NCBI RefSeq assembly: GCF_020552705.1
Contig: NZ_JAJBZG010000001.1
Span: forward strand, 310,001-374,000
Length of the DNA stretch: 64,000 bases
Direction: 5' to 3'
Source: Christiangramia sediminis
GTDB lineage: Bacteria > Bacteroidota > Bacteroidia > Flavobacteriales > Flavobacteriaceae
Below, piece by piece: positions 47,059 to 64,000 of the stretch. The position numbers and the translations under genes are program-made. The notes under the pieces are model-generated. The model saw only the letters and a program-made list of their open reading frames with translations. It ran no database searches and was not told the DNA's origin. The first letter of the stretch is position 1. The number at the start of each line of letters is the position of its first letter.

Positions 47059-47095
47059 TACCTGGAGCTAGAATTCCTTTTGGAATTTCCAGGTA
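47059..47095. other. Interrupted hairpin in the 46918-47100 gap
   Basis: Arms tacctgga (47059-47066) and tccaggta (47088-47095), then an asymmetric five-base bulge (gctag) and an inner stem aattcc (47072-47077)/ggaatt (47082-47087) around TTTT. There is no T-tract on either side, so it is not a typical terminator. Confidence 0.5.
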
Positions 47096-47104
47096 TTCTA
47101 CAAA

Positions 47105-47138
47105 AAATAAGCCTCATGCTTTCGCATGGGGCTTATTT
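47105..47138 (-). terminator. Terminator of the sigma/anti-sigma unit
   Basis: 15-bp stem aaataagcctcatgc (47105-47119) and gcatggggcttattt (47124-47138) with one G-U pair and loop tttc; an A-run on the left gives the U-tract on the minus strand. Confidence 0.85.
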
Positions 47139-47162
47139 GATATATTGGTACTTAAAATCGGT

Positions 47163-47969: not shown

Positions 47970-47972
47970 TTT

Positions 47973-48503: not shown

Positions 48504-48549
48504 AGGTGTTATTTGAGGAACTAAATATAACTTTAAATAATAAATAAAA

Positions 48550-48571
48550 AAAGCGGCAATTAAGCCGCTTT
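48550..48571 (-). terminator. Terminator of the superoxide dismutase gene
   Basis: Perfect 8-bp stem aaagcggc (48550-48557) and gccgcttt (48564-48571), 6-nt loop, followed on the minus strand by TTTTTTATTT. Confidence 0.82.
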
Positions 48572-48594
48572 AATACTTCTAATTTTTAGAAAGC

Positions 48595-49188
48595 TTACAT
48601 CTTGATAACACCACAACCTACTCGGGTTCCGGCTGCACCAGATGGTTGAGAAGTATAATCATCTACACCATCATGAACAATCACGGCTTTACCTAAAATA
48701 TCTTTTTTATCATCTCCACAATCAATGCACCATTCATCTGTACTAAAGTTAACGGTACCGTTTCCATTGGCATCTACTTCAAAATTGCCAATATCTCCTT
48801 TGTGGTATCCATCTGCGCTTCCCCATTCACCATGTTGGGCATCTGTTGGGTTCCAGTGGCCTCCGGCAGATTTACCGTCGGCAGCAGAACAATCTCCTTT
48901 TTCGTGGATATGAATAGCATGCGTACCTTCAGCAAGTCCTGAAATAATAGCAGTCATAGAGACTTCACCATTTTCTTCAGTAAAAACAACATTTCCGCTC
49001 AGGTTTGAATCGCTAACAGCCTGCAGAGAAACTTTAACTTTTTTTACTTCTTCCTCTTTTTGGGTTTCCATATCAGAATTCATTTCAGATTCTGACTGTG
49101 CATCCATTTCTTGTTCTTTTTTCTCATTCTTACATCCGGTAAAAATTAATCCCGCGCAAAGAATAAGAGATAAACTAATTCGTTTCAT
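48595..49188 (-). CDS. sodC: Cu/Zn superoxide dismutase lipoprotein
   Basis: 197 residues. Lipoprotein signal with Cys19 in 'AGLIFTGCKNEK', then an acidic linker of about 30 residues rich in Glu and Ser. The catalytic domain carries copper and zinc ligands: 'EGTHAIHIHEKGDCSAADGK', 'GGHWNPTDAQHG', 'DIGNFEVDANGNG', 'KAVIVHDGVDDYTSQPSGAA', and a disulfide pair (Cys in 'GDCS' and 'GTRVGCGVI'). It removes superoxide in the periplasm or at the surface. Single gene. Confidence 0.95.
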   Translation of the reverse strand: MKRISLSLILCAGLIFTGCKNEKKEQEMDAQSESEMNSDMETQKEEEVKKVKVSLQAVSDSNLSGNVVFTEENGEVSMTAIISGLAEGTHAIHIHEKGDCSAADGKSAGGHWNPTDAQHGEWGSADGYHKGDIGNFEVDANGNGTVNFSTDEWCIDCGDDKKDILGKAVIVHDGVDDYTSQPSGAAGTRVGCGVIKM

Positions 49189-49297
49189 AGTTTGGATTGG
49201 TTTAATATTACTATTATTAAACTAAATTAAGCCTATTCACAGGTATCACCAAAGATTTAAGGATAGCTTAACAAAGGCTGTGAAGCTATGAATTTTA

Positions 49298-50509
49298 CTA
49301 ATCTATTAGTTTGGTAATGATCTGTGCTTTGGAAGATAAAGTCTTGTGAACAGGACATTTGTCTGCAATTTCCATAAGTCGTTCTAATTGTGTTTTATCC
49401 AGATCTCCTTTTATGGATATTTCTCTTTCAAAACTGTCGATCTTAGCCATATCGTTCTCACAGTTCTCACAATCTTCTGCGTGTTTTTTTGAGTAGCTAA
49501 CATGAGTTTCCACGTTACTGATCTCCCATTCTTTTCTACGCGCATACATTTGGATGGTCATAGAAGTACAGGCTGCCAATCCGCTGGACACTAATTCGTA
49601 AGGATTTGGTCCCAGGTCACTGCCACCTACTTTAACCGGTTCATCGGCAATAAGATGATGATTGCCTGCTATAATCTGAGTTGTAAACCCGGAAGCCCCA
49701 AGATTGGCCATTACTTCATGATCTGTTTCTAACTCAGGAGTTTTTGGCTCTTTGATATATTTACTTGCCCATGCCGAAATTACTGTTCCAACATATTCTG
49801 AATCTGCTTTGGTACTTAACATATGATCTGCACCATCCAGGGAAACAAAACTTTTAGGATGCCATGCAGCTTTATATAGTTCTTCGGCATGATCTATGGA
49901 AACTATTTCATCTTGCGGGGAATGCATTATCAATAATGATTTTTTAATATCTTTTAAAGCCGAAGCATCCTGATTCTTTTTAAGATCATTGATAAATTGT
50001 TTCTTGATCTTGAAACTGCGTCCTCCGATCTTAATATTCGCAAAACCTTCTTTTTCTATTTCCTCCAGGCTTGATTCAAAATGTTTCTGAACGTGAGAAA
50101 GATTTGATGGCGCATTAATGGTGACCATACATTTAACTGATTCAAGTTTTTTTGAAGCGAATAGGGCAGCAGCGCCTCCGAGAGAATGCCCGATGATCAT
50201 TGACGGAGCCTTATACTCTCTTTCTAGAAATTCAGCAGCAGCCAGCAAGTCGTCTACATTGCTTGAAAAGTTTGTGTCTTCAAATTCACCCTCACTATCT
50301 CCGAGACCGGTAAAATCGAATCTTAAAATTCCATAACCTTTAGAAGCCAGGCTTTTACTGATATTTGAAGGTGCATGGAAGTTCTTATTGCAGGTGAAAC
50401 AATGAGCAAAAAGTATAAAATTTGCAGGTTGGGTATTGGTAGGTAATTCCAGAACACCTTTAAGTTCTTTTGAATCAGAATTTTTAAAACTGACTTCTAG
50501 CTTTTGCAT
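49298..50509 (-). CDS. Bifunctional alpha/beta hydrolase-OsmC family protein
   Basis: 403 residues with two domains. Residues 1-250 are an alpha/beta hydrolase with nucleophile Ser109 in 'MIIGHSLGGAAALFASKKLE', 'FDFTGLGDSEG', Asp in 'SPQDEIVS' and His in 'DGADHMLS'. Residues about 270-403 are an OsmC/Ohr domain: 'NPYELVSSGLAACTSMTIQM' with a catalytic Cys, and the second Cys in 'IADKCPVHKTLSS'. The OsmC half is likely a thiol-dependent (organic) peroxidase; how the hydrolase half relates to it is unknown. It has no signal peptide. This fusion is known in other bacteria. Confidence 0.93.
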   Translation of the reverse strand: MQKLEVSFKNSDSKELKGVLELPTNTQPANFILFAHCFTCNKNFHAPSNISKSLASKGYGILRFDFTGLGDSEGEFEDTNFSSNVDDLLAAAEFLEREYKAPSMIIGHSLGGAAALFASKKLESVKCMVTINAPSNLSHVQKHFESSLEEIEKEGFANIKIGGRSFKIKKQFINDLKKNQDASALKDIKKSLLIMHSPQDEIVSIDHAEELYKAAWHPKSFVSLDGADHMLSTKADSEYVGTVISAWASKYIKEPKTPELETDHEVMANLGASGFTTQIIAGNHHLIADEPVKVGGSDLGPNPYELVSSGLAACTSMTIQMYARRKEWEISNVETHVSYSKKHAEDCENCENDMAKIDSFEREISIKGDLDKTQLERLMEIADKCPVHKTLSSKAQIITKLID

Positions 50510-50602: not shown

Positions 50603-51352
50603 TTAAAGTTCTTTAATCTTTATATTTCTAAACCATACCGGGTCACCATGATCCTGTAGAGCGATATGTCCTTTTTTAGTGGCTCCAAAACCTTCCCATT
50701 CACTGAATTTGGATTTGCTTACCATTTCTTTCCATTCATCTCCCTGTACCGGGAATTCAACTACTTTGGTTCCATTTAGTTCTACCCAGCCTTTATTTTT
50801 GCTGTAATCTATATGAATCACTTCCTTGTTCCATTCGCCTGCAGGTTTTGTCGCATCCTCGCTTGGCGCAACCATATCATACAAAGCACCGGCAGTGCGA
50901 TTTAGTCCATTTTTAGCATCAGGATGTCTTTCATTGTCCAGCACCTGAATTTCAGGACCTGTTAAGTATGGTTCATCATATTTTTCTTCTTCCTGAACAG
51001 CCCACATAATCCCGCTATTTCCAGCTTCTGATATTTTCCATTCCAGAGATAATTCAAAACTTTCAAATTCATCTTCAGTAATAAGATTCTCTGATCCCGA
51101 TCTTTCTCCTTCAGAAGGTGTGAAAGAAATCGTGCCATTTTCAGCCTTCCACTGGTTGGAAATTGAATCCTTATTAAAAGCTTTCCATCCCTGAAGATCT
51201 TCACCATTAAAAAGCTCCTGCCATTCTGATTCCTGATTTTCCTCTTTAATTTCGGTGTTTTCAGCAACTTTGGTTTCTTCAGCTTCTTTATTTTCATTTT
51301 TACATGCGGTGAAAGCAAGTATTGAACATCCTATTATTAATATTTTTTTCAT
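50603..51352 (-). CDS. DUF1080 (3-keto-disaccharide hydrolase type) lipoprotein
   Basis: 249 residues. Lipoprotein signal with Cys17 in 'CSILAFTACKNENK', an acidic linker, then a complete DUF1080 beta-sandwich: 'EWQELFNGEDLQGWKAFNKD', 'GSENLITEDEFESFELSLEW', 'SEAGNSGIMWAVQEEEKYDE', 'GPEIQVLDNERHPDAKNGLN' and a C-terminal 'HIALQDHGDPVWFRNIKIKE'. Members of this family cleave 3-keto-glycosides after ring oxidation. Surface or periplasmic location follows from the lipid anchor. It is the last gene of a five-gene operon. The exact substrate is not known. Confidence 0.92.
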   Translation of the reverse strand: MKKILIIGCSILAFTACKNENKEAEETKVAENTEIKEENQESEWQELFNGEDLQGWKAFNKDSISNQWKAENGTISFTPSEGERSGSENLITEDEFESFELSLEWKISEAGNSGIMWAVQEEEKYDEPYLTGPEIQVLDNERHPDAKNGLNRTAGALYDMVAPSEDATKPAGEWNKEVIHIDYSKNKGWVELNGTKVVEFPVQGDEWKEMVSKSKFSEWEGFGATKKGHIALQDHGDPVWFRNIKIKEL

Positions 51353-51362
51353 TTTAATTGTT

Positions 51363-52415
51363 TTAAATTCCTAATATTCGTTTTAGTTTATTTTCGTCTA
51401 CTTCAGATCCTGAGAAATCATCAAATCTTTTTTGAGTGGCTTCAATAATATTACTGGCTATAAATGGCGCACCTTCTTTTGCTCCCTGTTCCGGAGATTT
51501 TATGCAACATTCCCATTCTAATACTGCCCAAACATCACAACCATATTCAGTTAGTTTAGAAAATATGGTTTTGAAATCTACCTGTCCGTCGCCGGGATGT
51601 CGATATCTTCCGGCCCGGTCTTTCCAGTCTCCGTAACCACCAAACATTCCTTTTTTTCCGGTGGGATTAAATTCAGCATCCTTTACATGGAACATTTTAA
51701 TAAAATCGTGATAATGGTCTATATACTCAATATAATCAAGCTGCTGAAGCACGAAGTGACTGGGATCGTATAATATATTTACTCTTTTGTGATTATTGGT
51801 GGCATCCAAAAAACGTTCAAAAGTAACCCCGTCATGAAGATCTTCTCCCGGATGTATTTCATAGCAAACGTCTACTCCCTGTTCATCAAATTCATTCAGA
51901 ATAGGCATCCATCGTTTCGCTAATTCGTTAAAGCCCATTTCCAGAAGACCTTCCGGTCTTTGAGGCCAGGGATGAGCAGTGTGCCATAAAAAGGAACCGC
52001 TAAAGGTTCCATGAACATCAATTCCCAGATTTCTACTTGCCTTTGCCGCATATTTTAATTGCTGTATGGCCCAGTTAGTTCGTTTTTCAGGATTGTTTTT
52101 ATATTCATCCGGGGCGAAATTATCAAACATGATATCATAGGCAGGATGTACCGCTACCAGTTGTCCCTGTAGGTGAGAACTTAATTCGGTGATCTCTAAT
52201 CCATAGGATTGAACCTTTCCTTTAAGTTCATCACAATAAGTTTTGCTTTCAGCTGCTTTTTTCAGATCTATAAGTCTCGTTTCCCAGGTTGGGATCTGAA
52301 TTCCTTTATAACCTAAACCTGAAGCCCATTTACATAAACCGTCCAGAGAATTGAAGGGTTCCTTGTCATCCATGAACTGAGCTAAAAAAACAGCTGGTCC
52401 TTTAATAGTCTTCAT
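51363..52415 (-). CDS. Cytoplasmic sugar phosphate isomerase/epimerase-like TIM-barrel protein
   Basis: 350 residues of the AP-endonuclease-2 (xylose isomerase-like TIM barrel) superfamily. No signal peptide. The metal site is plausible: Glu in 'VCYEIHPGEDLHDG', Asp in 'ILYDPSHFVLQQ', His in 'KMFHVKDAEFNPT' and Glu in 'WAVLEWECCIKSP'. Besides epimerases, the superfamily contains keto-sugar lyases and C-glycoside deglycosidases; which of these it does is not shown. It lies ten bases upstream of the DUF1080 gene and 12 bases after the Gfo/Idh gene. Confidence 0.9.
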   Translation of the reverse strand: MKTIKGPAVFLAQFMDDKEPFNSLDGLCKWASGLGYKGIQIPTWETRLIDLKKAAESKTYCDELKGKVQSYGLEITELSSHLQGQLVAVHPAYDIMFDNFAPDEYKNNPEKRTNWAIQQLKYAAKASRNLGIDVHGTFSGSFLWHTAHPWPQRPEGLLEMGFNELAKRWMPILNEFDEQGVDVCYEIHPGEDLHDGVTFERFLDATNNHKRVNILYDPSHFVLQQLDYIEYIDHYHDFIKMFHVKDAEFNPTGKKGMFGGYGDWKDRAGRYRHPGDGQVDFKTIFSKLTEYGCDVWAVLEWECCIKSPEQGAKEGAPFIASNIIEATQKRFDDFSGSEVDENKLKRILGI

Positions 52416-52427
52416 TTTTGTTTTTTT

Positions 52428-53564
52428 TTAATCTTCTAAGTTTATCCAAACATTCCCTTTTTTATGAGAATCGACGGTTTTTTCTATAAAATTCATTCCG
52501 CGTAAGCCATCATTTAATTTAGGATAGGCTCCTTCATGTTTCGACCTATCCTTGATAGCCATGGCTACCCCGTAATAGATATTCCCCATGGAATCGAAAA
52601 TCCCTTCAGGATGTCCGGGTGGAAGTTTAGTTCCTTCCAGAGAAAACTCACTATTATATTCGTGGCCCGGTTTTAAAACCTGAAGTGCCATCCCTTCTTT
52701 TAATAAATAAAGATAATTGGGATTTTCCTGTTCCCATTTTAAACCGCCATTATCCCCGTAAACCTGAACCGTAAAATTATTCTCTTCTCCGGTAGCGATC
52801 TGGCTGGCCCTCAACACTCCTTTGATATTTTCCTGAAATCTAAGCAACACCGTTCCGTCAATATCCATAGGATTATCTTCATAAAGATAATTGAGATCTG
52901 CCAGCACTTTATCAACGTTTAGTCCGGTAACATATTCCGCCATATTGTAGGCATGCGTACCAATATCACCAATACAGCAACTAATACCCGACTTTTCAGG
53001 ATCCAGTCTCCAGGTGTTGGATCTTTTTTCCTTATCGTGGATCAGCGGGTTTATCCAACCCTGATAATATTGCACATCTACCTTCTGGATCTTTCCGATT
53101 TCTCCGTTTGCGATCATGGTTTTCATTTGCCTGATCATAGGATATCCGGTATATGTATAAGTGACCGCAAATATGGTATTGTTTTTTTGCTGAATTTCAT
53201 TCAGAATTTTAGCTTCTTCATAGGTGATGGTCAGCGGTTTTTCGCAAATAACATTGTACCCGTTCTCCAGCAATTGCTTTGCCATGGGAAAATGTAGAAA
53301 GTTGGGGGTAAGTACTGAAACAGCCTGAATTTTTTGATTTTCCGGAAGTTTAGCTTCCTTCGCAATCATGTCATCAAGATCCTTATAAATCCTTGAACTA
53401 TCAAGCTGAAGCTTTTCTCCAAACTTTAAGCTTTTTTCATGCTGTACGTCAAAGACTCCTCCAACAATTTCGAACTGATCGAACATATTCGCGGCTACTC
53501 TGTGCAGAATTCCTATCAATGAATCTTCTCCGCCTCCTAATATTCCGAGTCGTATTTTACTCAT
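52428..53564 (-). CDS. Gfo/Idh/MocA family NAD(P)-dependent oxidoreductase
   Basis: 378 residues. N-terminal Rossmann fold: 'RLGILGGGEDSLIGILHRVA', 'SVLTPNFLHFPMAKQLLENG' and 'VICEKPLTITYEEAKIL' with the family Glu-Lys-Pro motif (about residue 112). The C-terminal domain has 'DIGTHAYNMAEYVTGL' with the conserved Asp and His that act on the substrate. The family oxidises or reduces sugars at a ring hydroxyl with NAD(P), including 3-keto-sugar interconversion. It has no signal peptide and is cytoplasmic. Confidence 0.93.
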   Translation of the reverse strand: MSKIRLGILGGGEDSLIGILHRVAANMFDQFEIVGGVFDVQHEKSLKFGEKLQLDSSRIYKDLDDMIAKEAKLPENQKIQAVSVLTPNFLHFPMAKQLLENGYNVICEKPLTITYEEAKILNEIQQKNNTIFAVTYTYTGYPMIRQMKTMIANGEIGKIQKVDVQYYQGWINPLIHDKEKRSNTWRLDPEKSGISCCIGDIGTHAYNMAEYVTGLNVDKVLADLNYLYEDNPMDIDGTVLLRFQENIKGVLRASQIATGEENNFTVQVYGDNGGLKWEQENPNYLYLLKEGMALQVLKPGHEYNSEFSLEGTKLPPGHPEGIFDSMGNIYYGVAMAIKDRSKHEGAYPKLNDGLRGMNFIEKTVDSHKKGNVWINLED

Positions 53565-53574
53565 AAAGTGTGTT

Positions 53575-54810
53575 TTATATTTCTATATCTTTCTTATCTA
53601 TCTTTTCATTCTTAAAGAATAAAGCAAAAAGTAACATAACTAAAAAGGCAAATGCTGCCGGATAAATCCAGATGGTTTCCCAGTCGTGCATTTTTTCTCC
53701 TGTAAGATAAGCATTCGTGATAAGTCCCGCTACATAAAAACCTATAAGCATCCCAACTCCATAGGTAGCCAGAGTGATTAATCCCTGTGCGGAACTCTTA
53801 TATTTTGATCCTGCTTTAAAATCTGTATAGATCTGTCCTGATACAAAGAAGAAGTCATAGCAGATTCCGTGAAGAGCAATACCTGTTAGGAGCATGAATA
53901 TGAGTTCTCCTGAATCACCATACGCGAAGAGAAGATACCTGATAGTCCATGCGAGCATTCCTGCGATAATGGTTAATTTGAAACCGAACCTTTTAAAGAA
54001 AAAGGGCAACAATAACATAAATAATACTTCAGAAGCCTGGCCGATGGTCATTAAGCCTGTAGGATTATCAACTCCAATTTCCGAAAGGAATGGATTCGTA
54101 TTCTGATAATAAAAAGCCAGAGGGATACAGATCAATACTGAAGCTACAAAGAACATTAAGAAGTTACGGTCTTTTAATAATCCCAGAGCATCAAGTCCAA
54201 GAGTTTCTACGATACTTACTTTTTTTGACCTGTCTGCCGTTGGTGGTGTTTTAGGAAGGGTGAAACTGAAAAGTCCTAGAAATGCGGAAGCTATACTCAC
54301 CATAAGGAAGGTATATTTTAGCAACCCATCCTGACGTCCCTCTGCAGCATCCCAACTTAACCAGCTAATTACAAGACCAGCGACAATCCAGCCAACGGTT
54401 CCAAAAACCCTGATAAAAGAGAATTCTTTCGCCGGATCTTTCATTTGATTAAAACTAACTGAATTCACCAGGGCCAGCGTAGGCATATAAGCGATCATAT
54501 AACCCAGAACTAATGGGTAAAATTCTATAAAATCTGTGCTTTGATACATCAGATATAATAGAACGGCTCCCACCAAATGTAAAATACCAAGAATTCTTTC
54601 AGCATTGAAAAACCTGTCGGCAATTAGTCCAATTATAAAGGGGGCTATAATAGCTCCCCATGATTGGGTTGAAAAAGCTGTGGAAATTTGAACGTCTGTT
54701 GCTTCCAGATTGTATCCAAGATAAGTTCCAAGTGTTACAAACCAGCCTCCCCAAATGAAGAATTCCAGAAACATCATTAGGGAAAGTTGAAATCGTATAA
54801 GTTTATTCAT
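53575..54810 (-). CDS. MFS sugar/nucleoside transporter (NupG-like)
   Basis: 411 residues with 12 membrane segments. It belongs to the nucleoside:H+ symporter-like MFS group ('FQLSLMMFLEFFIWGGWFVT', 'LGTYLGYNLEATDVQISTAF', 'GAIIAPFIIGLIADRFFNAE'). In Bacteroidota this subgroup is regularly found in sugar catabolic clusters beside Gfo/Idh and TIM-barrel genes, so a monosaccharide or keto-sugar is a likelier substrate than a nucleoside; this is inferred from context. It lies ten bases after the Gfo/Idh gene and 20 bases from the secreted isomerase gene. Confidence 0.9.
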   Translation of the reverse strand: MNKLIRFQLSLMMFLEFFIWGGWFVTLGTYLGYNLEATDVQISTAFSTQSWGAIIAPFIIGLIADRFFNAERILGILHLVGAVLLYLMYQSTDFIEFYPLVLGYMIAYMPTLALVNSVSFNQMKDPAKEFSFIRVFGTVGWIVAGLVISWLSWDAAEGRQDGLLKYTFLMVSIASAFLGLFSFTLPKTPPTADRSKKVSIVETLGLDALGLLKDRNFLMFFVASVLICIPLAFYYQNTNPFLSEIGVDNPTGLMTIGQASEVLFMLLLPFFFKRFGFKLTIIAGMLAWTIRYLLFAYGDSGELIFMLLTGIALHGICYDFFFVSGQIYTDFKAGSKYKSSAQGLITLATYGVGMLIGFYVAGLITNAYLTGEKMHDWETIWIYPAAFAFLVMLLFALFFKNEKIDKKDIEI

Positions 54811-54830
54811 AATCTAAAAGGTTGGTGGTT

Positions 54831-55829
54831 TTAAAGTTCACTGCCGGCTTTAATTAATAAATCTTTTGTGGCCATAATGCCTTTTTCTGCAGAAATATCG
54901 CTTCCTTCAAATTCAACTCCTATATAACCTGAGTATCCGGCATCCTTTATTATCTGAAGCATTTTTTTATAATCAATAAGATCTTCATTCCCTTTTTCAT
55001 CAAAAGTGTAAGACTTAGCACTAACAGCTTTTGCGTAAGACATCAGTTTTTCAACTCCTTCATATCTTGGAAATTCTTCAACGCATTTCGCATTCCATCT
55101 TTCTCCCCCTTCACGTTTTAGACAGAAATTTCCAAAATCGGGAAGAGTACCGCAATTCTCCATATTAACTTCCTTCATCACTTCTACAAGGAGATCGGCA
55201 TTTGAAGATAAATACCCATGATTTTCTACCAGGACATTAATTCCTTTTGTTTGGCCATATTCTGAAAGCTTTTTTAAGGCATCCACAGAATTGTTTTTCC
55301 ATTCTTCAGCATTATCACTTCCGAATAAATTTACACGTATAGAGTGACAACCAAGGTACTGGGCAGCATCTATCCATTTTTTATGATTTTCTACAGATTT
55401 ATTTCTTTCTACGGAATCATTTATGGCAAGATCGCCTTCGCCATCTATCATTAATAATAAATTTTTAACCCCATATTTTTCGCTTCTGGCTTTAAGAGTG
55501 TCCAGAACTTCTTTCATCTTCGCTTCGGGATTTTCAGCATTTTTGATTGGGCCAGCGTAAAAACCTGTAACGTATTCTATACCTTCAAAACCCATTTCGC
55601 TTGCTTTTTGAGCAAAATCCATAGGATCCAGTTCCTTATTCTCAATTTGTGTGTGTAAAGACCATTGTGCAAGAGATAATTTGAAAAATAACGAATCCGA
55701 AGCTGGTTCTGGATTTTCTTCCTGGGCTATATCAGATTCATTTTTTTTAGTCTCCTTACAGGAGACCAGAGATAAAGAAAACGTAGTTAAAACCAGGATT
55801 AATAATAGTTGAAAGGATTTTAATTTCAT
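54831..55829 (-). CDS. Lipoprotein of the sugar isomerase/epimerase (xylose isomerase-like TIM barrel) family
   Basis: 332 residues. Lipoprotein signal with Cys24 in 'FSLSLVSCKETKK', an acidic linker to residue 45, then an AP-endonuclease-2 barrel: 'LAQWSLHTQIENKELDPMDF', 'EMGFEGIEYVTGFYAG', 'GVKNLLLMIDGEGDL', 'VLVENHGYLSSNADLLVEVM', 'GTLPDFGNFCL' and 'GYIGVEFEGSDISAEKG'. An extracytoplasmic enzyme of this family would act on a sugar after it crosses the outer membrane. It is the first gene of the minus-strand operon and faces the GMC gene. Confidence 0.9.
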   Translation of the reverse strand: MKLKSFQLLLILVLTTFSLSLVSCKETKKNESDIAQEENPEPASDSLFFKLSLAQWSLHTQIENKELDPMDFAQKASEMGFEGIEYVTGFYAGPIKNAENPEAKMKEVLDTLKARSEKYGVKNLLLMIDGEGDLAINDSVERNKSVENHKKWIDAAQYLGCHSIRVNLFGSDNAEEWKNNSVDALKKLSEYGQTKGINVLVENHGYLSSNADLLVEVMKEVNMENCGTLPDFGNFCLKREGGERWNAKCVEEFPRYEGVEKLMSYAKAVSAKSYTFDEKGNEDLIDYKKMLQIIKDAGYSGYIGVEFEGSDISAEKGIMATKDLLIKAGSEL

Positions 55830-55928
55830 AGTTATGGGATTGAATAGTATGTCTTTGATTTAGTTAAGAAAAATGAAAAATAAATGTAGGCTTTTTTTTA
55901 AAGATGTAAAATAATCCCTTTAAATTTA

Positions 55929-55936
55929 TATATTTG
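55929..55936 (+). promoter_or_regulatory. -7 element of the GMC oxidoreductase gene
   Basis: TATATTTG (TAnnTTTG), 42 bp before the GTG start at 55978, in the 148-bp divergent region between the two arms of the locus. Confidence 0.55.
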
Positions 55937-55977
55937 AAAGACTTCGAGCTTAATTTTTATCAATAAAATAATCAATT

Positions 55978-57681
55978 GTGAGTAACTATTACGAAAATGA
56001 CAATTATGACGCCATAGTTGTTGGAACAGGCATCAGCGGCGGATGGGCTGCTAAGGAGCTTTGCGAAAAAGGATTTAAAACTCTGGTTTTAGAAAGAGGA
56101 AGAATGGTGGAGCATGTTAAAGATTATCCAACCATGAATGACGATCCCTGGGACTATAAATTTAAAGGACAGGTTCCTCGGGAAGAAAAGAAACGCCAGC
56201 TTAAGCAAGCAAGAACAGGGTATACGGTAGCTGAACCTAGCAAACATTGGTTTGTAGATGATATTAAACATCCCTATAACGAAGTAAAGAGATTTGACTG
56301 GATGCGTGGTTACCACGTTGGTGGTAGATCTATCATGTGGGGAAGACATAGCTACAGATTGAGCGATATGGATTTTGAAGCCAATAAAAAAGATGGTCAT
56401 GGTGTAGACTGGCCTATTAGATACAAAGATATCGCACCCTGGTATGATAAGGTTGAATCTTATATAGGTGTATGTGGTGAAAAGTTGGGGCTAAGTCAGT
56501 TGCCTGATGGGCAGTTCCTTCCGCCCATGGATCTTAATTGCGTGGAAGATTATTTTAGGGAAAGTATTGCCGAGAATTTTGATGGTCGGGTAATGACCTC
56601 AGGAAGGGTAGCTCATATAACCGGAGATAAAAAGTTTGAAGGTCGGTCTAAATGTCAATTTAGAAACCGATGTATTAGAGGTTGTCCTTATGGAGCATAT
56701 TTTAGCAGTAACTCTTCTACCTTACCTGCAGCCGAAAGGACCGGAAATATGACCTTAAGACCTAATTCAGTAGTAAGCCAGGTTGTATATGATCCTGAAA
56801 CTAAAAAAGCTTCCGGAGTTAAGGTTATTGATGCTAATACAAAGGAAACTATGGAGTTTAAGGCCAATGTGATCTTTCTTTGTGCTTCTGCAGTTGCTTC
56901 AACAAGTATTTTAATGCAATCTAAATCTGATAGATTTCCTGACGGAATGGGTAATGATTCGGGTGAGCTGGGACATAATGTTATGGATCATCACTTCAAG
57001 GCAGGTGCTTCAGGAAAGTATGACGGATTTGAAGATTCTTATTATAAAGGTAGAAAACCTAATGGTATCTATTTGCCAAGATTCAGGAATTTGAATGATA
57101 ATGATAAAAACCTCGGATTTCTGAGAGGTTATGGGTATCAGGGGGGTGCAAGTAGAGGTGACTGGTCTAGTAGCATAGCTGAGGCAGCTTATGGAGAAGA
57201 TCTTAAAAAAGCGATCACACAACCAGGAGGATGGACCATGGGACTTATGGGCTTTGGAGAAACCCTGCCATATCATGAAAATAAAATGACTCTGGATTAT
57301 AATAAACTGGATGAATGGGATCTACCTACAATAACTTTTGACGCAGAGTTTAAAGAAAATGAACTCAAAATGAGGGAAGATATGGTCTCCCAGGCAGTAG
57401 AAATGTTAGATAAAGCAGGTTTTAAAGATGTGAATGGGTACGATGATATTGGAGCACCTGGATTAGGAATTCATGAAATGGGGATGGCTAGAATGGGTCG
57501 TGATCCAAAAACATCTGTATTAAATGGGAATAATCAGGTTCACGGAGTTCCTAATGTATATGTGACAGATGGAGCTTTTATGACCTCTGCAGGGTGCCAG
57601 AATCCATCTTTAACGTATATGGCAATGACCGCCAGAGCGGCAGATCATGCTTCAAAGAATTTCAAAAAGTCTAATGCTTAA
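55978..57681 (+). CDS. GMC family FAD oxidoreductase with putative 3Fe-4S site
   Basis: 567 residues from GTG 55978; no ATG lies before the FAD motif. FAD-binding 'DAIVVGTGISGGWAAKELCE' (11-30) begins the protein, without its own signal peptide. 'CQFRNRCIRGC' gives Cys226, Cys232 and Cys236, the C-x5-C-x3-C pattern of the 3Fe-4S cluster in FAD-dependent glucose dehydrogenases (such as that of Burkholderia). The active-site His is in 'GLGIHEMGMARMGRDP' and Asn in 'SAGCQNPSLTYMAMT' (C-terminal GMC motif). It is expected to oxidise a sugar or glycoside; the small subunit follows 11 bases later. Confidence 0.93.
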   Translation: MSNYYENDNYDAIVVGTGISGGWAAKELCEKGFKTLVLERGRMVEHVKDYPTMNDDPWDYKFKGQVPREEKKRQLKQARTGYTVAEPSKHWFVDDIKHPYNEVKRFDWMRGYHVGGRSIMWGRHSYRLSDMDFEANKKDGHGVDWPIRYKDIAPWYDKVESYIGVCGEKLGLSQLPDGQFLPPMDLNCVEDYFRESIAENFDGRVMTSGRVAHITGDKKFEGRSKCQFRNRCIRGCPYGAYFSSNSSTLPAAERTGNMTLRPNSVVSQVVYDPETKKASGVKVIDANTKETMEFKANVIFLCASAVASTSILMQSKSDRFPDGMGNDSGELGHNVMDHHFKAGASGKYDGFEDSYYKGRKPNGIYLPRFRNLNDNDKNLGFLRGYGYQGGASRGDWSSSIAEAAYGEDLKKAITQPGGWTMGLMGFGETLPYHENKMTLDYNKLDEWDLPTITFDAEFKENELKMREDMVSQAVEMLDKAGFKDVNGYDDIGAPGLGIHEMGMARMGRDPKTSVLNGNNQVHGVPNVYVTDGAFMTSAGCQNPSLTYMAMTARAADHASKNFKKSNA

Positions 57682-57692
57682 ATAATAGAATC

Positions 57693-58337
57693 ATGAAAAG
57701 GAGACAAGCCTTAAAAAATATAGGACTAGGAGCAGGGATTTTTATTGTAGGTCCTTCAACGTTAAGCTTATTGCAAAGTTGTAAGAACGAGCCTGAATAT
57801 GACTGGCAACCTACCTTTCTATCGGCATCTCACGGTTTTGCACTTCAGAGAATACTGGATATAATATTACCAGCTACAGATACTCCGGGAGCATCAGATC
57901 TTAATATAGCCCAATTCATAGATTCTTATATGGATCAGGTGGCAGATGAGGAAAGACGAAATCGATTTGAACGATCGGCAGGATCTTTTTCAAAAGCCTT
58001 TAAAGCTGAATATGATAAGGAGCAGGGGGAAGGAAAAGACGAAGAATTTGAGAATTTGATCAAGAAATATCTGAAAGCTACACCTGCAGAAAAAAAGGAG
58101 TATGCTAAAAGAAATACGGAAACCCAGGATGCTCAAAAACAGCAATCAGACATGGAAATTGATCCTGATGCAGGAGCATATGCTTATTTAACCACGGTTA
58201 GAGAAATGGGGATCTGGGCCTGGAAGAATAGTGAAGAGATCGGGGAGAATGTATTATGGTACGATCCAGTTCCAGGTGAATATATTCCTTGTGGCCCTGT
58301 TTCAGAATTAGGGAATGGTAAAGCAATGTCCCTCTAG
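57693..58337 (+). CDS. Gluconate 2-dehydrogenase subunit 3 family protein, Tat-exported
   Basis: 214 residues. The N-terminus 'MKRRQALKNIGLGAGIFIVG' with Arg-Arg and a hydrophobic stretch, ending 'LSLLQSC' (Cys30), is a Tat signal that also fits a lipobox. The remainder is the gluconate_2-dh3 domain: 'LQRILDIILPATDTPGASDL', 'FIDSYMDQVADEERRNRFER' and a C-terminal 'WYDPVPGEYIPCG'. In this enzyme class the small subunit carries the export signal and takes the folded GMC subunit through the Tat pore. It follows the GMC gene directly. Confidence 0.93.
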   Translation: MKRRQALKNIGLGAGIFIVGPSTLSLLQSCKNEPEYDWQPTFLSASHGFALQRILDIILPATDTPGASDLNIAQFIDSYMDQVADEERRNRFERSAGSFSKAFKAEYDKEQGEGKDEEFENLIKKYLKATPAEKKEYAKRNTETQDAQKQQSDMEIDPDAGAYAYLTTVREMGIWAWKNSEEIGENVLWYDPVPGEYIPCGPVSELGNGKAMSL

Positions 58338-58393
58338 ATTGCGATTTTAATAAGTTTTTCTTTACTTATTAACAATTGTGAGTAAAATTTTAT

Positions 58394-58450
58394 TTTTTAT
58401 TGAATTTATAATAATTAGGTGATAATTAATTAATTTTTATCGAATTTATA
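58394..58450. repeat. 17-bp direct repeat upstream of susC
   Basis: tttttattgaatttata (58394-58410) and tttttatcgaatttata (58434-58450) differ at one base and start exactly 40 bp apart. They lie in the AT-rich 283-bp gap 58338-58620, about 170-225 bp before the susC start; the remainder of the gap holds no gene. Operator function is a guess. Confidence 0.55.
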
Positions 58451-58577
58451 GCGTATTTCGATTATTGCTAATAATTCTATGTTTTTTTTGTGTAAATTTT
58501 ACATATAAATACTTCTAAAAATTTATTTCATAAAACCTAATTGTTTTATTAACAAATATTTGCATAATTTTATCCTA

Positions 58578-58597
58578 ATTCAGATATTTTTCTGAAT
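58578..58597. promoter_or_regulatory. Palindrome in the susC leader
   Basis: attcaga (58578-58584) and tctgaat (58591-58597) form a 7-bp inverted repeat with a 6-nt loop ending 23 bp before the susC ATG. Confidence 0.4.
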
Positions 58598-58620
58598 CAT
58601 TCCAACTAAAACTTTAATTT

Positions 58621-61600
58621 ATGAAACAAATTATCTTCAGGGGCTTTTTGTTTGCGGCTATCTTCCTATTTTATGGAATGGTCAATGCACAACAAACGGT
58701 CTCCGGGACAGTTACCGATGAATCTGGTCCGCTTCCCGGCGCAACAGTAGCTATTAAAGGAACTTCTACCGGTACTACTACTGATTTTGACGGAAACTAC
58801 ACTTTAAACGATGTGCCCGATGATGCTACACTTGTTTTTAGTTTTGTAGGTTTTGTAACTCAGGAAGTAGCTCTTAATGGTAGAACTACTATTAATGTCA
58901 ACCTAGCTACAGATGCATCAGAACTTGAAGAAGTAGTGCTAATTGGTTACGGGCAGACTACAGTGCGGGATGCAACGGGAGCAGTTGCTTCAGTTAGTGC
59001 TGCAGAATTCAATAAAGGTAATATATCCTCTCCCGAGGAGTTAATCCAGGGTAAAACTGCGGGGGTGCAAATTACCCAGGCCAGTGGTGAACCTGGAGCA
59101 GGCGTGGCGCTTCGTATTCGAGGTACAACTTCCGTAAGATCCAATAATAATCCTCTTTTTGTAGTAGATGGAGTACCTCTAGCAGGAGGTGATACAGCAG
59201 CAGGAACAGGAGACCTTGGTTTTGGTTCCAGTTCTGCCAGAAACCCTCTAAACTTTATTAATCCAAGTGATATAGAAAGTATAAGTATCCTAAAAGATGC
59301 ATCAGCAACGGCTATTTATGGTTCGAGAGGTGCAAACGGAGTGGTAATTGTTCAAACTAAATCTGGTAGAGGAGCTCAAGGTGGAGCTTTTACATATGAT
59401 GCTTCCTTAAGTGTTGCATCTCCAGCTAATGAATTTGATTTATTAGACCGTAACGAGTATTTAGATGCTATTGAACAATTTGGAGGAGATGTGGAAGCTC
59501 AGGATTTTGGAGCTGACACAGATTGGCAGGATGTTATTACCAGAACTGCAATCTCTCAGAATCATGCGTTGTCTTATATGAATAATTATAATTCAGGGAA
59601 CGTTCGTGTTTCTTTTGGATATAATGATATAGAAGGTGTGGTAGAGAATTCAGCTTTAGAACGAATTACGGGAAGAGTAAATGCTAACCATAGATTTTTT
59701 GATGATAAACTAAACCTTAGTTTACAATCAACCATATCCAGAGTTAACGATAAAGCTGCTCCTGTTACAAATACTGCAGGATCTTCAGGAGATTTAATAG
59801 GATCTGCTTATTACGCAAACCCAACCTGGCCAGCAACTTTAGATTTTTCACCGGGTGGAGGTAACTTAAATCCTTTGCAATTACTAAGATTTTCTAATGA
59901 CGAAACTGAAACCGACAGGGTTTTAATCAATTTTTCTGCAGATTATGATATCCTTCCAGCACTTAATGCAAAAGTTACCCTTGGATATGATAAATCTGAG
60001 TCAGAAAAAACAGCTGTAGTTTCAGGTGATATTACCGGAGTAACTAATGGTACTCCTGGGAATGGGAGAGGTTTTATTTTTGATAGAGAACTTACCAATA
60101 CCCTTTTTGATTTTGTATTAAACTACGAGAAGGAATTTGAAAATTCCAGCTTTACGGCATTAGCAGGATATTCTTATCAAAAATTCGATAGTCAGGGAAG
60201 AGATGCTTCTGCCTTTGGATTTGCTACTACAAACCTGGGTGAGATGGCTAATAATTTCAGAAGTGATCTTGATGCCCTTGCAGGTACTATAGACCGTTCA
60301 TATAATCAATTTTATTACAGCAATGCAGGATTTTTTGCTGATGGACTTTTCCCAGAAATTTACCAAGGACAGGAATTTACTGCTCCCGGAAGTGTGTCTC
60401 TACAATCTATAACCAATGGAACATTTGATAATTATGACGAATTACAGTCCTTTTTTACGAGACTGAACTATTCATTGATGGATAAGTATTTATTTACTTT
60501 CACATTAAGAGCTGATGGTTCTTCAAGATTCGGACCTGAAAATCAATATGGTTATTTTCCATCAGGTGCATTTGCATGGAAGATAGATCAGGAAGATTTC
60601 ATAAATAAGGAAACCTTCTCTACGTTGAAACTTCGTCTTGGTTACGGTATTACAGGAAACCAGGAAGGACTTGGATATGGGAACTTCACAATTAGAAGAG
60701 TTTTGAACGGATACGGGATTAATAACGGTGGCGATATAACCGGGGGTGGTCTTGGAACCGCTGGTTTTGCAAATCCTGATCTTAAATGGGAAGAAACCGC
60801 ACAGGCAAATATTGGTCTGGATTTCGGATTTTTCAATGATAGGTTATCAGGAAGTTTGGATTTCTATCACAAGGATACTCAGGATCTCCTATTGGAAGCT
60901 CAAAATGCCCAGCCAAGCCCGGCTCCCTCTTCTTTTAGAAATATTGATGGAAGCGTGATAAATAAAGGGGTGGAATTTGCTATTGATTATGATATTTTTG
61001 ATGATGAAGACTTCTTTTGGAATATAGGATTTAATATAGCTTACAATGATAATGAATTACAGGATTTTGATGGCTTAATTGAAAGTGCTCAGATTTCTGG
61101 ACAGGGATTAACAGGAGCTTTTGCGCAACTGTTGGCTGAAGGAAGACCATTATTTTCTTATTATCTAAGAGAGTTTGCAGGTTTTGATGAAAACGGAATA
61201 TCTATCTATCCAAATGGTGATGAACAGGAATTTGTAGGTAAGAGTGCTTTACCAACTACCAATGTAGGTATTAACACCAGAGCAGAATATAAGAACTGGG
61301 ATGCGTCCTTATTCTTCGCTGGTCAGTTTGGACATTATATTTATAATAATACCGAGAATGCATTTTTCACAGCAGGAAGTATTAATGGAGGAAGAAATGT
61401 AATTCAGGACGTGCTTACAAATGGAGAATCGGCTGCGAATGCACCAGATGTTTCTACCAGATTTTTGGAAAGTGGTGATTTTCTTCGTTTGCAAAATGCC
61501 AGTCTGGGATATACATTTGACTTAGGTGAAAATTCTTTTCTTGATAATTTCAGACTCTATGTGAATGGCCAGAATCTATTTGTTATTACAGATTATAGTG

Positions 61601-61719
61601 GTTTAGATCCTGAAGTAAATACTCAAACTCCGCTGAATGGTATTCCAACAGCAGGGATTGATTATACAGCTTATCCAAGACCAAGAACATTTACTTTTGG
61701 TTTTAATGCTAAATTTTAA
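58621..61719 (+). CDS. SusC/RagA-type TonB-linked outer-membrane receptor
   Basis: 1032 residues. Signal peptide at about 1-24 (ending 'GMVNAQ'), then a CarboxypepD_reg domain ('VSGTVTDESGPLPGATVAIK', 'TDFDGNYTLNDVPDDATLVF'), the TonB-linked motif and plug ('LEEVVLIGYGQTTVRDATGA', 'RIRGTTSVRSNNNPLFVVDG', 'DASATAIYGSRGANGVVIVQ'), and a long barrel ending in 'YPRPRTFTFGFNAKF' with terminal Phe. With the next gene's SusD partner it forms the nutrient importer for an oligosaccharide or glycoside. It lies 283 bp after the gluconate-dehydrogenase-like subunit gene, with probable own control. Confidence 0.95.
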   Translation: MKQIIFRGFLFAAIFLFYGMVNAQQTVSGTVTDESGPLPGATVAIKGTSTGTTTDFDGNYTLNDVPDDATLVFSFVGFVTQEVALNGRTTINVNLATDASELEEVVLIGYGQTTVRDATGAVASVSAAEFNKGNISSPEELIQGKTAGVQITQASGEPGAGVALRIRGTTSVRSNNNPLFVVDGVPLAGGDTAAGTGDLGFGSSSARNPLNFINPSDIESISILKDASATAIYGSRGANGVVIVQTKSGRGAQGGAFTYDASLSVASPANEFDLLDRNEYLDAIEQFGGDVEAQDFGADTDWQDVITRTAISQNHALSYMNNYNSGNVRVSFGYNDIEGVVENSALERITGRVNANHRFFDDKLNLSLQSTISRVNDKAAPVTNTAGSSGDLIGSAYYANPTWPATLDFSPGGGNLNPLQLLRFSNDETETDRVLINFSADYDILPALNAKVTLGYDKSESEKTAVVSGDITGVTNGTPGNGRGFIFDRELTNTLFDFVLNYEKEFENSSFTALAGYSYQKFDSQGRDASAFGFATTNLGEMANNFRSDLDALAGTIDRSYNQFYYSNAGFFADGLFPEIYQGQEFTAPGSVSLQSITNGTFDNYDELQSFFTRLNYSLMDKYLFTFTLRADGSSRFGPENQYGYFPSGAFAWKIDQEDFINKETFSTLKLRLGYGITGNQEGLGYGNFTIRRVLNGYGINNGGDITGGGLGTAGFANPDLKWEETAQANIGLDFGFFNDRLSGSLDFYHKDTQDLLLEAQNAQPSPAPSSFRNIDGSVINKGVEFAIDYDIFDDEDFFWNIGFNIAYNDNELQDFDGLIESAQISGQGLTGAFAQLLAEGRPLFSYYLREFAGFDENGISIYPNGDEQEFVGKSALPTTNVGINTRAEYKNWDASLFFAGQFGHYIYNNTENAFFTAGSINGGRNVIQDVLTNGESAANAPDVSTRFLESGDFLRLQNASLGYTFDLGENSFLDNFRLYVNGQNLFVITDYSGLDPEVNTQTPLNGIPTAGIDYTAYPRPRTFTFGFNAKF

Positions 61720-61729
61720 AAAATTGATC

Positions 61730-63331
61730 ATGAAATATTCGAATTTAAAATTTTTAATCCTCGGTGCCTTAGCATTAAATATAAGCTCATGTACCGACCT
61801 TGAAATTGAGGAAACTGATTCCTTAATTGTAAATCAAACCGGAGAATTTACCGGTGTTGAAAATGTAGATGCTACTTTAGATGGTATTTACGATACTTAC
61901 CGAGGGCAAATTGCTACTCAGGAGAATCTTTATGCCTTAAATGAGGTTAGTACAGATGAATTATTAGTGCCAACCCGTGGGACAGACTGGGGTGATAATG
62001 GACTATGGAGATCTTTACACCAGCATACCTGGTCATCTATCCATCCTTTTGTAAGAAATGTGTGGAATGATCAGAACTCCAATATTTTCCGTACTACGGA
62101 AGTTATTGATGAAAGAAGTAATCCTTCTCCTCAACAGGCTGCTGAAGCAAGATTTTTAAGAGCTTATAGCATGTTCTGGATCATGGACCTGTATGGACAG
62201 GTGCCTTTTAGAGCACCAGATGAGGGGATTGAGATAGATCCTATAGTTTATACCCGCCAGGAAGCATTCGAATTTATTTTGGATGATCTTACTACCGCCA
62301 TGGATGACCTTCCTACTATTGGCCCAGGAGAAGGTACCATGCGAGCAAATAAAGCAGCAGCGCATTTTCTATTAGCAAAATTATATCTTAATAAGCATAT
62401 TTATCTTGGAACCGATTCTGCTGCTCCGGCAGATATGGAAATGGTTGTAGAGAATGTAGAGGCAATTGAGGATATGGGGTTCGGTCTCGTAGAAGGTTAT
62501 TTTGGAATTTTTTCTCCAAAACTTGATAATGAAACTATTTTCCATACTAATGCAGACTGGGGAAATAAAATATGGAATACTTTACATTATAATCAGAATT
62601 CTCCAGGAAATACTGGCGGTGGATGGAATGGTTTTACCACTTTATCTGAATTTTATGATCTATTTGAAGGAGATCCTAATACTAACTTTCCGGGAGATGG
62701 ACAGGAAGAAAGAAGAGGTTTTGTTCCACTAGCAGGGACACCTATGAGTGGTGATATAGATTTTGATGGAGACGGCATTCCAGAAGAAGATACCGATTCA
62801 GATGGATTTGTAGATGCATCAGATATTGGTTTTGGTTTCCTTATTGATAATCAATATAATCTTCAGGGAGAAACTAAAAAGAACCGTCAAGGAGGAGATC
62901 TTTCTTATACAAAAGAATTGCCTGGTTTATTAGGTAATAACGAAGATACCGGAATCCGGGTTATAAAATATCACCCAACAAACGGAGCATTTACGGGACA
63001 TCACATTTTATTCAGATTTTCAGATGCTCATCTTATGAAGGCCGAAGCTATTATGAGAGGTGCTGCAGGAGATGCAACTTCATTAGTTAATCAGTTAAGA
63101 GAATTGAGAAAAGCCTCTCCGCTTTCCAGTGTAACTGAACAGGATATGATTGCTGAAAGAGGTAGGGAGTTATATGGGGAATATTGGAGAAGAAACGATC
63201 AAATACGTTTTGGTACCTTTACCAATACATGGTCTTTTAAAGACAGTACTGAAGAATTCAGGGTACTTTATCCTATACCTGCCTCTGCAATTATTTCAAA
63301 TCCTAACCTTACTCAGAATGAGGGTTATTAA
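61730..63331 (+). CDS. SusD/RagB-type substrate-binding lipoprotein
   Basis: 533 residues from ATG 61730 (MKYSNLKFLILGALALNISS); an open frame to 61637 lies in susC. Lipoprotein Cys21 in 'LNISSCTDLE'. SusD family features: 'GVENVDATLDGIYDTYRGQI' early, TPR-like 'QAAEARFLRAYSMFWIMDLY', 'FRAPDEGIEIDPIVYTRQEA', and the C-terminal 'LYGEYWRRNDQIRFGTFTNT' and 'YPIPASAIISNPNLTQNEGY'. Between about residues 341 and 366 an Asp-rich insertion (D-x-D-x-D-G repeats) looks like a calcium-binding loop. The gene starts ten bases after susC. Confidence 0.94.
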   Translation: MKYSNLKFLILGALALNISSCTDLEIEETDSLIVNQTGEFTGVENVDATLDGIYDTYRGQIATQENLYALNEVSTDELLVPTRGTDWGDNGLWRSLHQHTWSSIHPFVRNVWNDQNSNIFRTTEVIDERSNPSPQQAAEARFLRAYSMFWIMDLYGQVPFRAPDEGIEIDPIVYTRQEAFEFILDDLTTAMDDLPTIGPGEGTMRANKAAAHFLLAKLYLNKHIYLGTDSAAPADMEMVVENVEAIEDMGFGLVEGYFGIFSPKLDNETIFHTNADWGNKIWNTLHYNQNSPGNTGGGWNGFTTLSEFYDLFEGDPNTNFPGDGQEERRGFVPLAGTPMSGDIDFDGDGIPEEDTDSDGFVDASDIGFGFLIDNQYNLQGETKKNRQGGDLSYTKELPGLLGNNEDTGIRVIKYHPTNGAFTGHHILFRFSDAHLMKAEAIMRGAAGDATSLVNQLRELRKASPLSSVTEQDMIAERGRELYGEYWRRNDQIRFGTFTNTWSFKDSTEEFRVLYPIPASAIISNPNLTQNEGY

Positions 63332-63349
63332 TCAATAATTTAACTGTAT

Positions 63350-63380
63350 AAAAAAGAAGGCAATTATGCCTTCTTTTTTT
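63350..63380 (+). terminator. Terminator after susD
   Basis: Perfect 13-bp stem aaaaaagaaggca (63350-63362) and tgccttctttttt (63367-63379), 4-nt loop, followed by more T. Confidence 0.9.
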
Positions 63381-63531
63381 ATTCAATATTTCTATATTTA
63401 ACAATATTTTATAAAAAAATTCAGCAAAATTTAAATTGGTTTGAAAAGGGATTTTAAAACATTTTCATGCCCTATAATGACTTTAGTTTAGCTTTATAAA
63501 AAGTTATTTTCGAAGACCCTAAATGCAGATT

Positions 63532-64000
63532 ATGAGATTCTCTTCCTTCATAAAATTATTATTTTTCTTTTTTCTAATTTCCTGTGGATCCGATTCTGAA
63601 GAGGAAAATCAGGAAAAGCAGAAAAGTGATGAAAATACCTTGTATACCTTACTCGATTCAGAGGAAACAGGTATTGCATTTATAAACGAAGTAAAGAACA
63701 GCCCCGATTTCAATATTTTTAAATACCGTAATTTTTATAACGGTGGTGGTGTTGCAATTGGTGATATCAATAATGACGGCCTACCGGATATCTATCTTAC
63801 GGCCAATATGAAACCCAATAAACTTTACCTTAATAAAGGAAATTTCAAATTTGAGGATATTTCAAAATCCGCCGGCATAGAAGGGAACAAGCCGTGGTCT
63901 ACCGGTGTAAATATGGTAGACATCAATCAGGATGGTTTACTGGATATTTATGTGAGTAACGCTGGTAATATGGAAGGTGATAATCACAATAACGATCTCT
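63532..64000 (+). CDS. FG-GAP/VCBS-repeat lipoprotein (CRTAC1-like), 5' part
   Basis: About 156 N-terminal residues, cut by the right edge. Start at ATG 63532 (MRFSSFIKLLFFFFLISC); ATG 63523 (three residues more) is possible. Lipoprotein Cys18 in 'FLISCGSDSEEE'. The mature part has FG-GAP repeats with Ca-binding Asp loops ('GGGVAIGDINNDGLPDIYLT', 'MVDINQDGLLDIYVSN') as in CRTAC1/UnbV proteins, which in Bacteroidota often run to about 1100 residues and lie beside SusC/D genes. Role unknown; surface binding is likely. It begins about 200 bp after the susD terminator. Confidence 0.88.
   Translation, partial: MRFSSFIKLLFFFFLISCGSDSEEENQEKQKSDENTLYTLLDSEETGIAFINEVKNSPDFNIFKYRNFYNGGGVAIGDINNDGLPDIYLTANMKPNKLYLNKGNFKFEDISKSAGIEGNKPWSTGVNMVDINQDGLLDIYVSNAGNMEGDNHNNDL

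Follow-up and report, generated by a model that had tools for sequence, protein, structure and literature searches.

In Agrobacterium tumefaciens, glycosides are degraded by a pathway of four enzymes, GlycDH/TAT, AtOGE, AtHYD and Gfo; AtOGE has the Mn ligands H or E, D, H and E, together with a catalytic His (PMC10628242, in the part available to us). A Caulobacter cluster combines LacABC and DUF1080 with a transporter, two epimerases and a reductase, and Bacteroidetes examples are given alongside it; the same source, of which an excerpt was available, terms BT2157 a 3-ketotrehalose hydrolase (PMC9007349). In Bacteroides thetaiotaomicron, BT2158 is described as a periplasmic glycoside 3-dehydrogenase needed for disaccharide use (PMC11300592, in excerpt). 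Here we compare these systems with a locus of Christiangramia sediminis, located in a stretch of 64,000 nucleotides (contig NZ_JAJBZG010000001.1, positions 310,001 to 374,000), which we refer to as the window. We consider it likely that positions 50603-58337 of the window constitute a seven-gene cassette for the oxidative degradation of glycosides, and that the genes from SusC/SusD onward belong to a second, separable module. The cassette encodes a DUF1080 lipoprotein, two TIM barrels (HYD, and the lipoprotein TIMlp), a Gfo/Idh/MocA oxidoreductase (GFO), a transporter of the major facilitator superfamily (MFS), and the large and small subunits of a dehydrogenase (GMC and SUB3) (Table 1).

The assignment leans on HYD, which matches the PDB entry 8ro4, named "2-hydroxy-3-keto-glucal hydratase", over its full length (E 2.6e-159, 533.8 bits, residues 1-350 on 1-349), and in which E186, H188, D217, H243 and E300 hardly vary among 67 aligned sequences. 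This match points to a pathway of C3 oxidation, cleavage, hydration and reduction. As in Agrobacterium, there is a GMC-type dehydrogenase with a Tat-signal partner (judged by family and motif), and there are two TIM barrels, one of them matching 8ro4 by sequence, with a Gfo/Idh/MocA gene in the same operon; the window differs in adding the DUF1080 lipoprotein, the NupG-like MFS transporter and a lipoprotein TIM barrel that lacks a sequence match to AtOGE. The LacABC-DUF1080 system for lactose and salicin in Caulobacter and Pedobacter likewise places GMC and small subunit genes near a DUF1080 gene (by family; excerpt of PMC9007349), but the window cassette has no LacB-type cytochrome gene. With the BT2157/BT2158 pathway it shares the cleaving-enzyme family PF06439, whereas GFO scores 39.4 bits against the BT_2158 family and 22 bits against BT_2159, far under the curated cut-offs of 750 and 650, and we ascribe the oxidation step to GMC. 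An NAD-type BT_2158/BT_2159 reading of GFO was dropped because of these scores. The preliminary description of this DNA, made from its letters, had proposed a 3-keto-glycoside type pathway without hydrolases, and the HYD match and PF06439 lend that proposal support at the family level.

The cassette is not confined to this genome. GMC homologues (E ≤ 1e-50, with mostly at most four candidates scored per genome) occur in at least 163 of 299 sampled genomes of the family Flavobacteriaceae. We examined 80 named loci, the best 80 of 589 confirmed stretches, some of which share genomes with the other family loci described below; the closest GMC match among them is in a Christiangramia metagenome-assembled genome, at 96% identity. 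HYD, GFO, TIMlp and SUB3 are all present in 65 of the 80, and in 50 of the 56 loci of at least 20 kb, while all six partners of GMC are present in 56 of the 80. In two further sets of family loci, the 20 closest and 20 spread over the ranking, the same four genes co-occur in 13 and 14 cases, respectively, within fetched stretches of about 20 kb, so that partners may lie beyond. The combination is thus widespread rather than unusual, and related sets are described in the available parts of PMC9007349 and PMC10628242. The pathway type is already known, and it is the seemingly exchangeable SusC/SusD module that is worth a second look. In other genera, SUB3 is often followed by a TIM-barrel protein with a Tat-like start (cluster c0, 21 of the 40 family loci; PF01261 in the representative), which occupies the position where the window has SusC.

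In the first step of the proposed pathway, GMC, exported and tethered by the twin-arginine translocation (Tat) lipoprotein SUB3, would oxidise the C3 hydroxyl of the glycoside in the periplasm. GMC is the single match of its kind in its own genome, and its best PDB matches are the large subunits of fructose dehydrogenase and of FAD-dependent glucose dehydrogenase. Cysteines C226, C232 and C236 (C-X5-C-X3-C) align with those of fructose dehydrogenase and are almost unchanged across 81 aligned sequences. GMC has no signal sequence of its own; R3, R4 and C30 of SUB3 are near-invariant (alignment of 72), as would suit a lipoprotein that leaves by the Tat route and takes GMC with it. The Pfam match of SUB3 stands alone, a phmmer search against PDB having returned no relative at E ≤ 0.1. 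The cysteine motif and the features of SUB3 agree, at the level of families, with the earlier suggestion of periplasmic oxidation by an FAD/Fe-S enzyme. Electrons would pass through FAD and the Fe-S cluster, the acceptor being a cytochrome or copper protein presumably encoded elsewhere. In the genome itself PF13442 has five matches, four of them over the cut-off and none close to the cassette. In 11 of the 40 family loci, in other genera, a gene for a plastocyanin/azurin-family protein lies downstream of GMC on the other strand (cluster c4; PF00127 in the representative), and this protein is a possible electron acceptor.

In the second step, the DUF1080 lipoprotein, acting with TIMlp or alternating with it, would cleave the 3-keto-glycoside by elimination or hydrolysis, and an aglycone or a second sugar would be released; the assignment of both candidate enzymes is made at the family level. 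At E ≤ 0.001 the genome has no match to PF06439, a family named 3-keto-disaccharide hydrolase, other than the DUF1080 protein, whose PDB relatives include 8rr2 and 8tda. Its lipobox Cys17 is near-invariant (alignment of 70), as is the lipobox Cys of TIMlp. The structural model of TIMlp (pLDDT 89.0) has as its top Foldseek match 4ovx, an entry of unnamed function, followed by the C-glycoside deglycosidase subunits DgpB-C and DfgA-B, an isomerase and epimerases. In weak alignments, E202-x-H204 of TIMlp aligns with the E-x-H of the deglycosidases, and the deglycosidase motif H-A-K/H-F-K becomes S-A-K both in TIMlp and in 4ovx. Compared with the ligands of AtOGE-type Mn eliminases, TIMlp has E202-x-H204, D231 and E306/E308, with Ser in place of the His of beta7. 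TIMlp could act as an epimerase, or as an eliminase whose metal site is altered.

Three steps would follow. The NupG-like MFS transporter would move the keto-sugar, or the 2-hydroxy-3-keto-glycal, inward (step 3); HYD would hydrate 2-hydroxy-3-keto-glucal to 3-keto-glucose (step 4), as indicated by its strong match to the structure so named; and GFO would reduce 3-keto-glucose to the hexose (step 5), following the order in Agrobacterium. By eye, neither HYD nor GFO has a signal sequence. GFO matches PDB 3v5n (E 8.5e-92), and its top NCBIfam hit is levoglucosan dehydrogenase, at 97.8 of 650 bits. By analogy with the Agrobacterium order, the role of final keto-sugar reductase suits GFO better than that of an oxidase working in parallel.

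Several observations weigh against the cassette as a coherent pathway of this kind. At least one of HYD, GFO, TIMlp and SUB3 is absent from 15 of the 80 named loci, short contigs included, and three Gillisia loci (L126-L128) lack HYD, GFO and the MFS gene. The authors of the Agrobacterium work themselves term the evidence for the role of the hydratase preliminary (PMC10628242, in the part available). The Ser of TIMlp at the beta7 position, Ser270, where deglycosidases have His, is invariant in 32 sequences, and the AtOGE entry is not among the 17 PDB matches of TIMlp at E ≤ 1. The model of SUB3 (pLDDT 74.9) has no Foldseek relative at E ≤ 0.001. Unlike LacABC, the cassette contains no cytochrome gene among the open reading frames (ORFs) of at least 100 aa in 50603-58337, and the cytochrome of a Hymenobacter cassette, used as a query, found a sole match in the genome, at 24% identity and on another contig. 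Comparison with distant gene sets cuts both ways. In favour of the cassette, a Pseudoalteromonas plasmid carries Gfo-HYD-MFS-DUF1080-GMC-small subunit-TIM as a single gene run, and a Hymenobacter plasmid carries a like set plus a c-type cytochrome. Against it, identity to the window proteins is 68% for HYD, 31% for GMC, 43% for GFO and 36% for DUF1080 in Pseudoalteromonas, and 67%, 56%, 38% and 26%, respectively, in Hymenobacter. The Pseudoalteromonas MFS, small subunit and second TIM barrel have no BLAST match to the window at E ≤ 1e-3, and at the same threshold both Hymenobacter TIM barrels have no match to TIMlp. Judged by sequence, these plasmid sets are not full orthologues of the cassette. 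On an Azospirillum plasmid, HYD and Gfo genes are found with an ABC transporter, and no GMC is annotated in the 17 kb seen.

Two side observations concern the same genes. The Gillisia loci carry a variant in which DUF1080 and TIMlp are accompanied by a Gfo/Idh protein of ~490 aa with a Tat-like start. HYD homologues are spread widely across phyla: they were found in 349 plasmid records, with identities of 60-80% in 98, and nine of the ten commonest genera shown are Proteobacteria.

Table 1. Features of the cassette and the adjoining module (positions in the window)
Feature	Position	Strand	Evidence
DUF1080/PF06439 lipoprotein, candidate periplasmic 3-keto-glycoside cleaving enzyme	50603..51352	-	PF06439 E 2.4e-51
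HYD, TIM barrel (PF01261), 2-hydroxy-3-keto-glucal hydratase homologue	51363..52415	-	8ro4 match
GFO, Gfo/Idh/MocA oxidoreductase, proposed keto-sugar reductase	52428..53564	-	Pfam, PDB 3v5n
MFS transporter, NupG/Nuc_H_symport type, proposed keto-sugar importer	53575..54810	-	PF03825 E 8.5e-117
TIMlp, TIM-barrel lipoprotein, candidate eliminase or epimerase	54831..55829	-	PF01261
148-bp divergent intergenic region, presumed promoters of both operons	55830..55977	.	
GMC, FAD/Fe-S glycoside-3-dehydrogenase-type large subunit	55978..57681	+	PF05199/PF00732
SUB3, Gluconate_2-dh3 small subunit, Tat-like RR and lipobox Cys30	57693..58337	+	PF13618 E 1.9e-16
283-bp AT-rich gap, left boundary of separable module	58338..58620	.	
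SusC of separable module, type varying among species	58621..61719	+	TIGR04056, trees
SusD of separable module	61730..63331	+	PF07980, PF14322
First FG-GAP/UnbV_ASPIC lipoprotein, start only in window	63523..64000	+	

The gene families named in the preliminary description are borne out by Pfam and NCBIfam, but the two operons, there called facing, are divergent and 148 bp apart (55830-55977). The minus-strand genes (50603-55829) are spaced by 10-20 bp. The plus strand from 55978 onward is probably more than one unit, with a break at the 283-bp gap, since the SUB3/SusC gap is AT-rich and SusC opens a module that is separable in comparisons. There is no terminator-like site on the plus strand in 55700-58800, and promoter- and terminator-like sites, the 148-bp divergent region included, are no commoner than in shuffled sequence.

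The separable module spans ~14.1 kb and comprises SusC/SusD, two FG-GAP/UnbV_ASPIC lipoproteins, a vanadium haloperoxidase and a GyrI-like gene. It ends about 8.4 kb past the right edge of the window. We followed it in a 20-kb stretch (L004) that starts 1 kb before the edge, and in which all 11 ORFs of at least 120 aa were scanned with Pfam; the FG-GAP/UnbV_ASPIC, haloperoxidase and GyrI-like genes occupy L004:523-9422. The PAP2 protein encoded there matches the vanadium-dependent haloperoxidase 4cit (E 6.1e-194), and the GyrI-like gene is followed by a lipid kinase, an APP1-type phosphatase and further genes. As in the polysaccharide utilisation loci of Flavobacteriaceae, a clade known for them, there is a SusC-SusD pair; in contrast to them, the module has no carbohydrate-active enzyme gene, with FG-GAP/UnbV_ASPIC proteins and a vanadium haloperoxidase instead. 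None of its genes has a Pfam match to a glycoside hydrolase (GH), polysaccharide lyase or sulfatase, and neither a lyase nor a sulfatase was found by Pfam in the 11 ORFs of L004. Its single GH is a GH15 (L004 17695-19491), outside the module, adjoining a trehalose-phosphate synthase/phosphatase gene (Glyco_transf_20/Trehalose_PPase). The absence of GH, lyase and sulfatase genes noted earlier for the visible part consequently extends, by Pfam, as far as this GH15, which starts 16.7 kb past the edge, and the pattern named beforehand as counter-evidence, namely typical GH neighbours and relatives without the oxidative genes, was not seen.

The relation of module to cassette is evident from 24 close loci (GMC identity of at least 80%; L123, a 3.9-kb contig, is not counted). 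In 17 of them the cassette has a homologous module at its side, oriented as in the window in 12 (L107-L112, L115, L116, L126-L128, L160) and inverted in five (L114, L119, L125, L129, L130). Two more (L117, L118) have a different SusC plus an ASPIC gene at the site, and five (L113, L120-L122, L124) are without the module. At these five sites the lipid-kinase gene follows 84 to 251 bp after SUB3 (84 bp in L113, 129-251 bp in the other four). L113 is similar to the window as far as 58336, apart from a gap at 55635-55880; the next similar stretch begins at 72439 (numbering continued past the edge), at the lipid-kinase gene, so that about 14.1 kb are missing and the site in L113 is empty. The module is found in none of the 55 other named loci, and among the 80 its linkage to the cassette is a trait of the Christiangramia-Salegentibacter-Gillisia-Zunongwangia-Salinimicrobium group; the 40 family loci taken alone show almost no linkage of SusC/SusD to the cassette. 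Given the empty, inverted and replaced sites, we rejected SusC/SusD as a fixed part of the cassette and narrowed the linkage to this one group. The adjacency reported in the preliminary description stands; a SusC/SusD pair that is a fixed partner of the oxidative genes is not supported, on account of these sites and of discordant trees.

The module also has a distribution of its own. A haloperoxidase homologue occurs in 128 of the 299 family genomes. We hand-chose 20 loci of 20 kb centred on the haloperoxidase (the 10 best, three near GMC, and seven from genomes absent among the GMC matches): 10 retain SusC or SusD, at 46% identity or more, with ASPIC-ASPIC-haloperoxidase (L087-L089, L092-L094, L096-L099), and one has a cassette gene (GMC in L097). 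Among the matches listed, inspection by eye found haloperoxidase and GMC within about 20 kb of each other in G100, G113, G148 and G197. Judging by the titles listed, a literature search for UnbV together with SusC, SusD and haloperoxidase returned nothing on the topic.

We built SusC and GMC trees from the 13 loci with SusC in the same direction (the GMC row of L160, an over-long ORF of 700 aa, was trimmed in the alignment). In the GMC tree, the window pairs with L107 (97/94), within a set of five that includes L108, L109 and L160 (98/94). In the SusC tree, the window groups with L110 and L111 (100/100), L107 falls with L115 (Salegentibacter), L112 and the Gillisia loci, and L108, L109 and L160 form a third deep type. 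At least three deep SusC types thus occur at this fixed site, and their grouping disagrees with the GMC tree. The 5' part of SusC in L107 and L108 stays similar to that of the window, and most of the remainder is dissimilar. The L107 and L108 types were not found elsewhere in the window genome, where the next-best matches by E-value reach 41% and 38% (47-48% over short N-terminal stretches). This suggests that the SusC/SusD pairs differ among species through exchange by recombination.

It is quite possible, if short of an even chance, that the adjacency is instead a neutral relic of one ancestral insertion followed by inversion and loss, the SusC discordance reflecting differential loss of tandem SusC/SusD copies or fast divergence. 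The restriction of the module to one clade and the empty sites are what such a history would leave behind, and other envelope proteins diverge fast too (TIMlp of L108 is 52% identical to that of the window, where GMC is 93-94% identical). However, the conflict between the SusC and GMC trees is highly supported in each of them, which is more than fast divergence alone would produce; the other SusC types were not found elsewhere in the window genome; and the similarity in L107 and L108 is largely limited to the 5' part of the gene.

A second alternative, compatible with the cassette as we read it, is that cassette and module form one functional locus, in which SusC/SusD would import the glycoside for oxidative cleavage. 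We regard this as tenable but rather doubtful. It accommodates the recurrence of the module, in either orientation, next to the cassette of 17 of the 24 close relatives, the different SusC plus ASPIC at the site in L117 and L118, a TonB-dependent receptor near the Pseudoalteromonas operon, and the lack of a terminator-like site between SUB3 and SusC. It sits poorly with the empty and the five inverted sites, with the absence of the module from the 55 other named loci, and with the independent occurrence of the haloperoxidase, which keeps its SusC or SusD and ASPIC neighbours in half of the 20 loci centred on it, against a single locus with a cassette gene.

A bolder proposal would make the site between SUB3 and the lipid kinase a specificity slot, where exchangeable SusCD-FG-GAP/UnbV_ASPIC-haloperoxidase modules choose the glycoside for a constant cassette, and would make TIMlp, with S-A-K for H-A-K, a new class of periplasmic 3-keto-glycoside eliminase partnering DUF1080; as a whole we hold it to be unlikely. 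Least of all do we favour a cassette for cyclitols or free keto-sugars rather than glycosides, which is very improbable: inositol catabolism often involves Gfo/Idh and AP_endonuc_2 families, and NCBIfam gives weak matches of HYD to IolE (62.4 bits) and of GFO to IolG (61.3 bits), but these scores are far under the curated cut-offs of 290 and 355, for which the inositol-type reading of both proteins was dropped, the match of HYD to 8ro4 is full length, and PF06439 with GMC/Gluconate_2-dh3 suits 3-keto-glycoside chemistry.

Reading 50603-58337 as an oxidative glycoside cassette places a widespread gene set of marine Flavobacteriaceae on a named pathway, and turns the labels "sugar phosphate isomerase" and "DUF1080" into testable enzyme steps. 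It also advises caution, in that the neighbouring SusC/SusD should not be read as part of the oxidative locus. A site with varying SusC/SusD beside constant enzymes is open to a direct test of substrate switching.

On the other side of the cassette, the left flank (46153-50509) encodes a Cu/Zn superoxide dismutase lipoprotein, an alpha/beta hydrolase-OsmC fusion, a sigma factor of the extracytoplasmic function (ECF) type with its anti-sigma factor, and a LytTR regulator. This flank is largely conserved, its clusters u0-u4 comprising 20-24 ORFs each over the 24 close loci.

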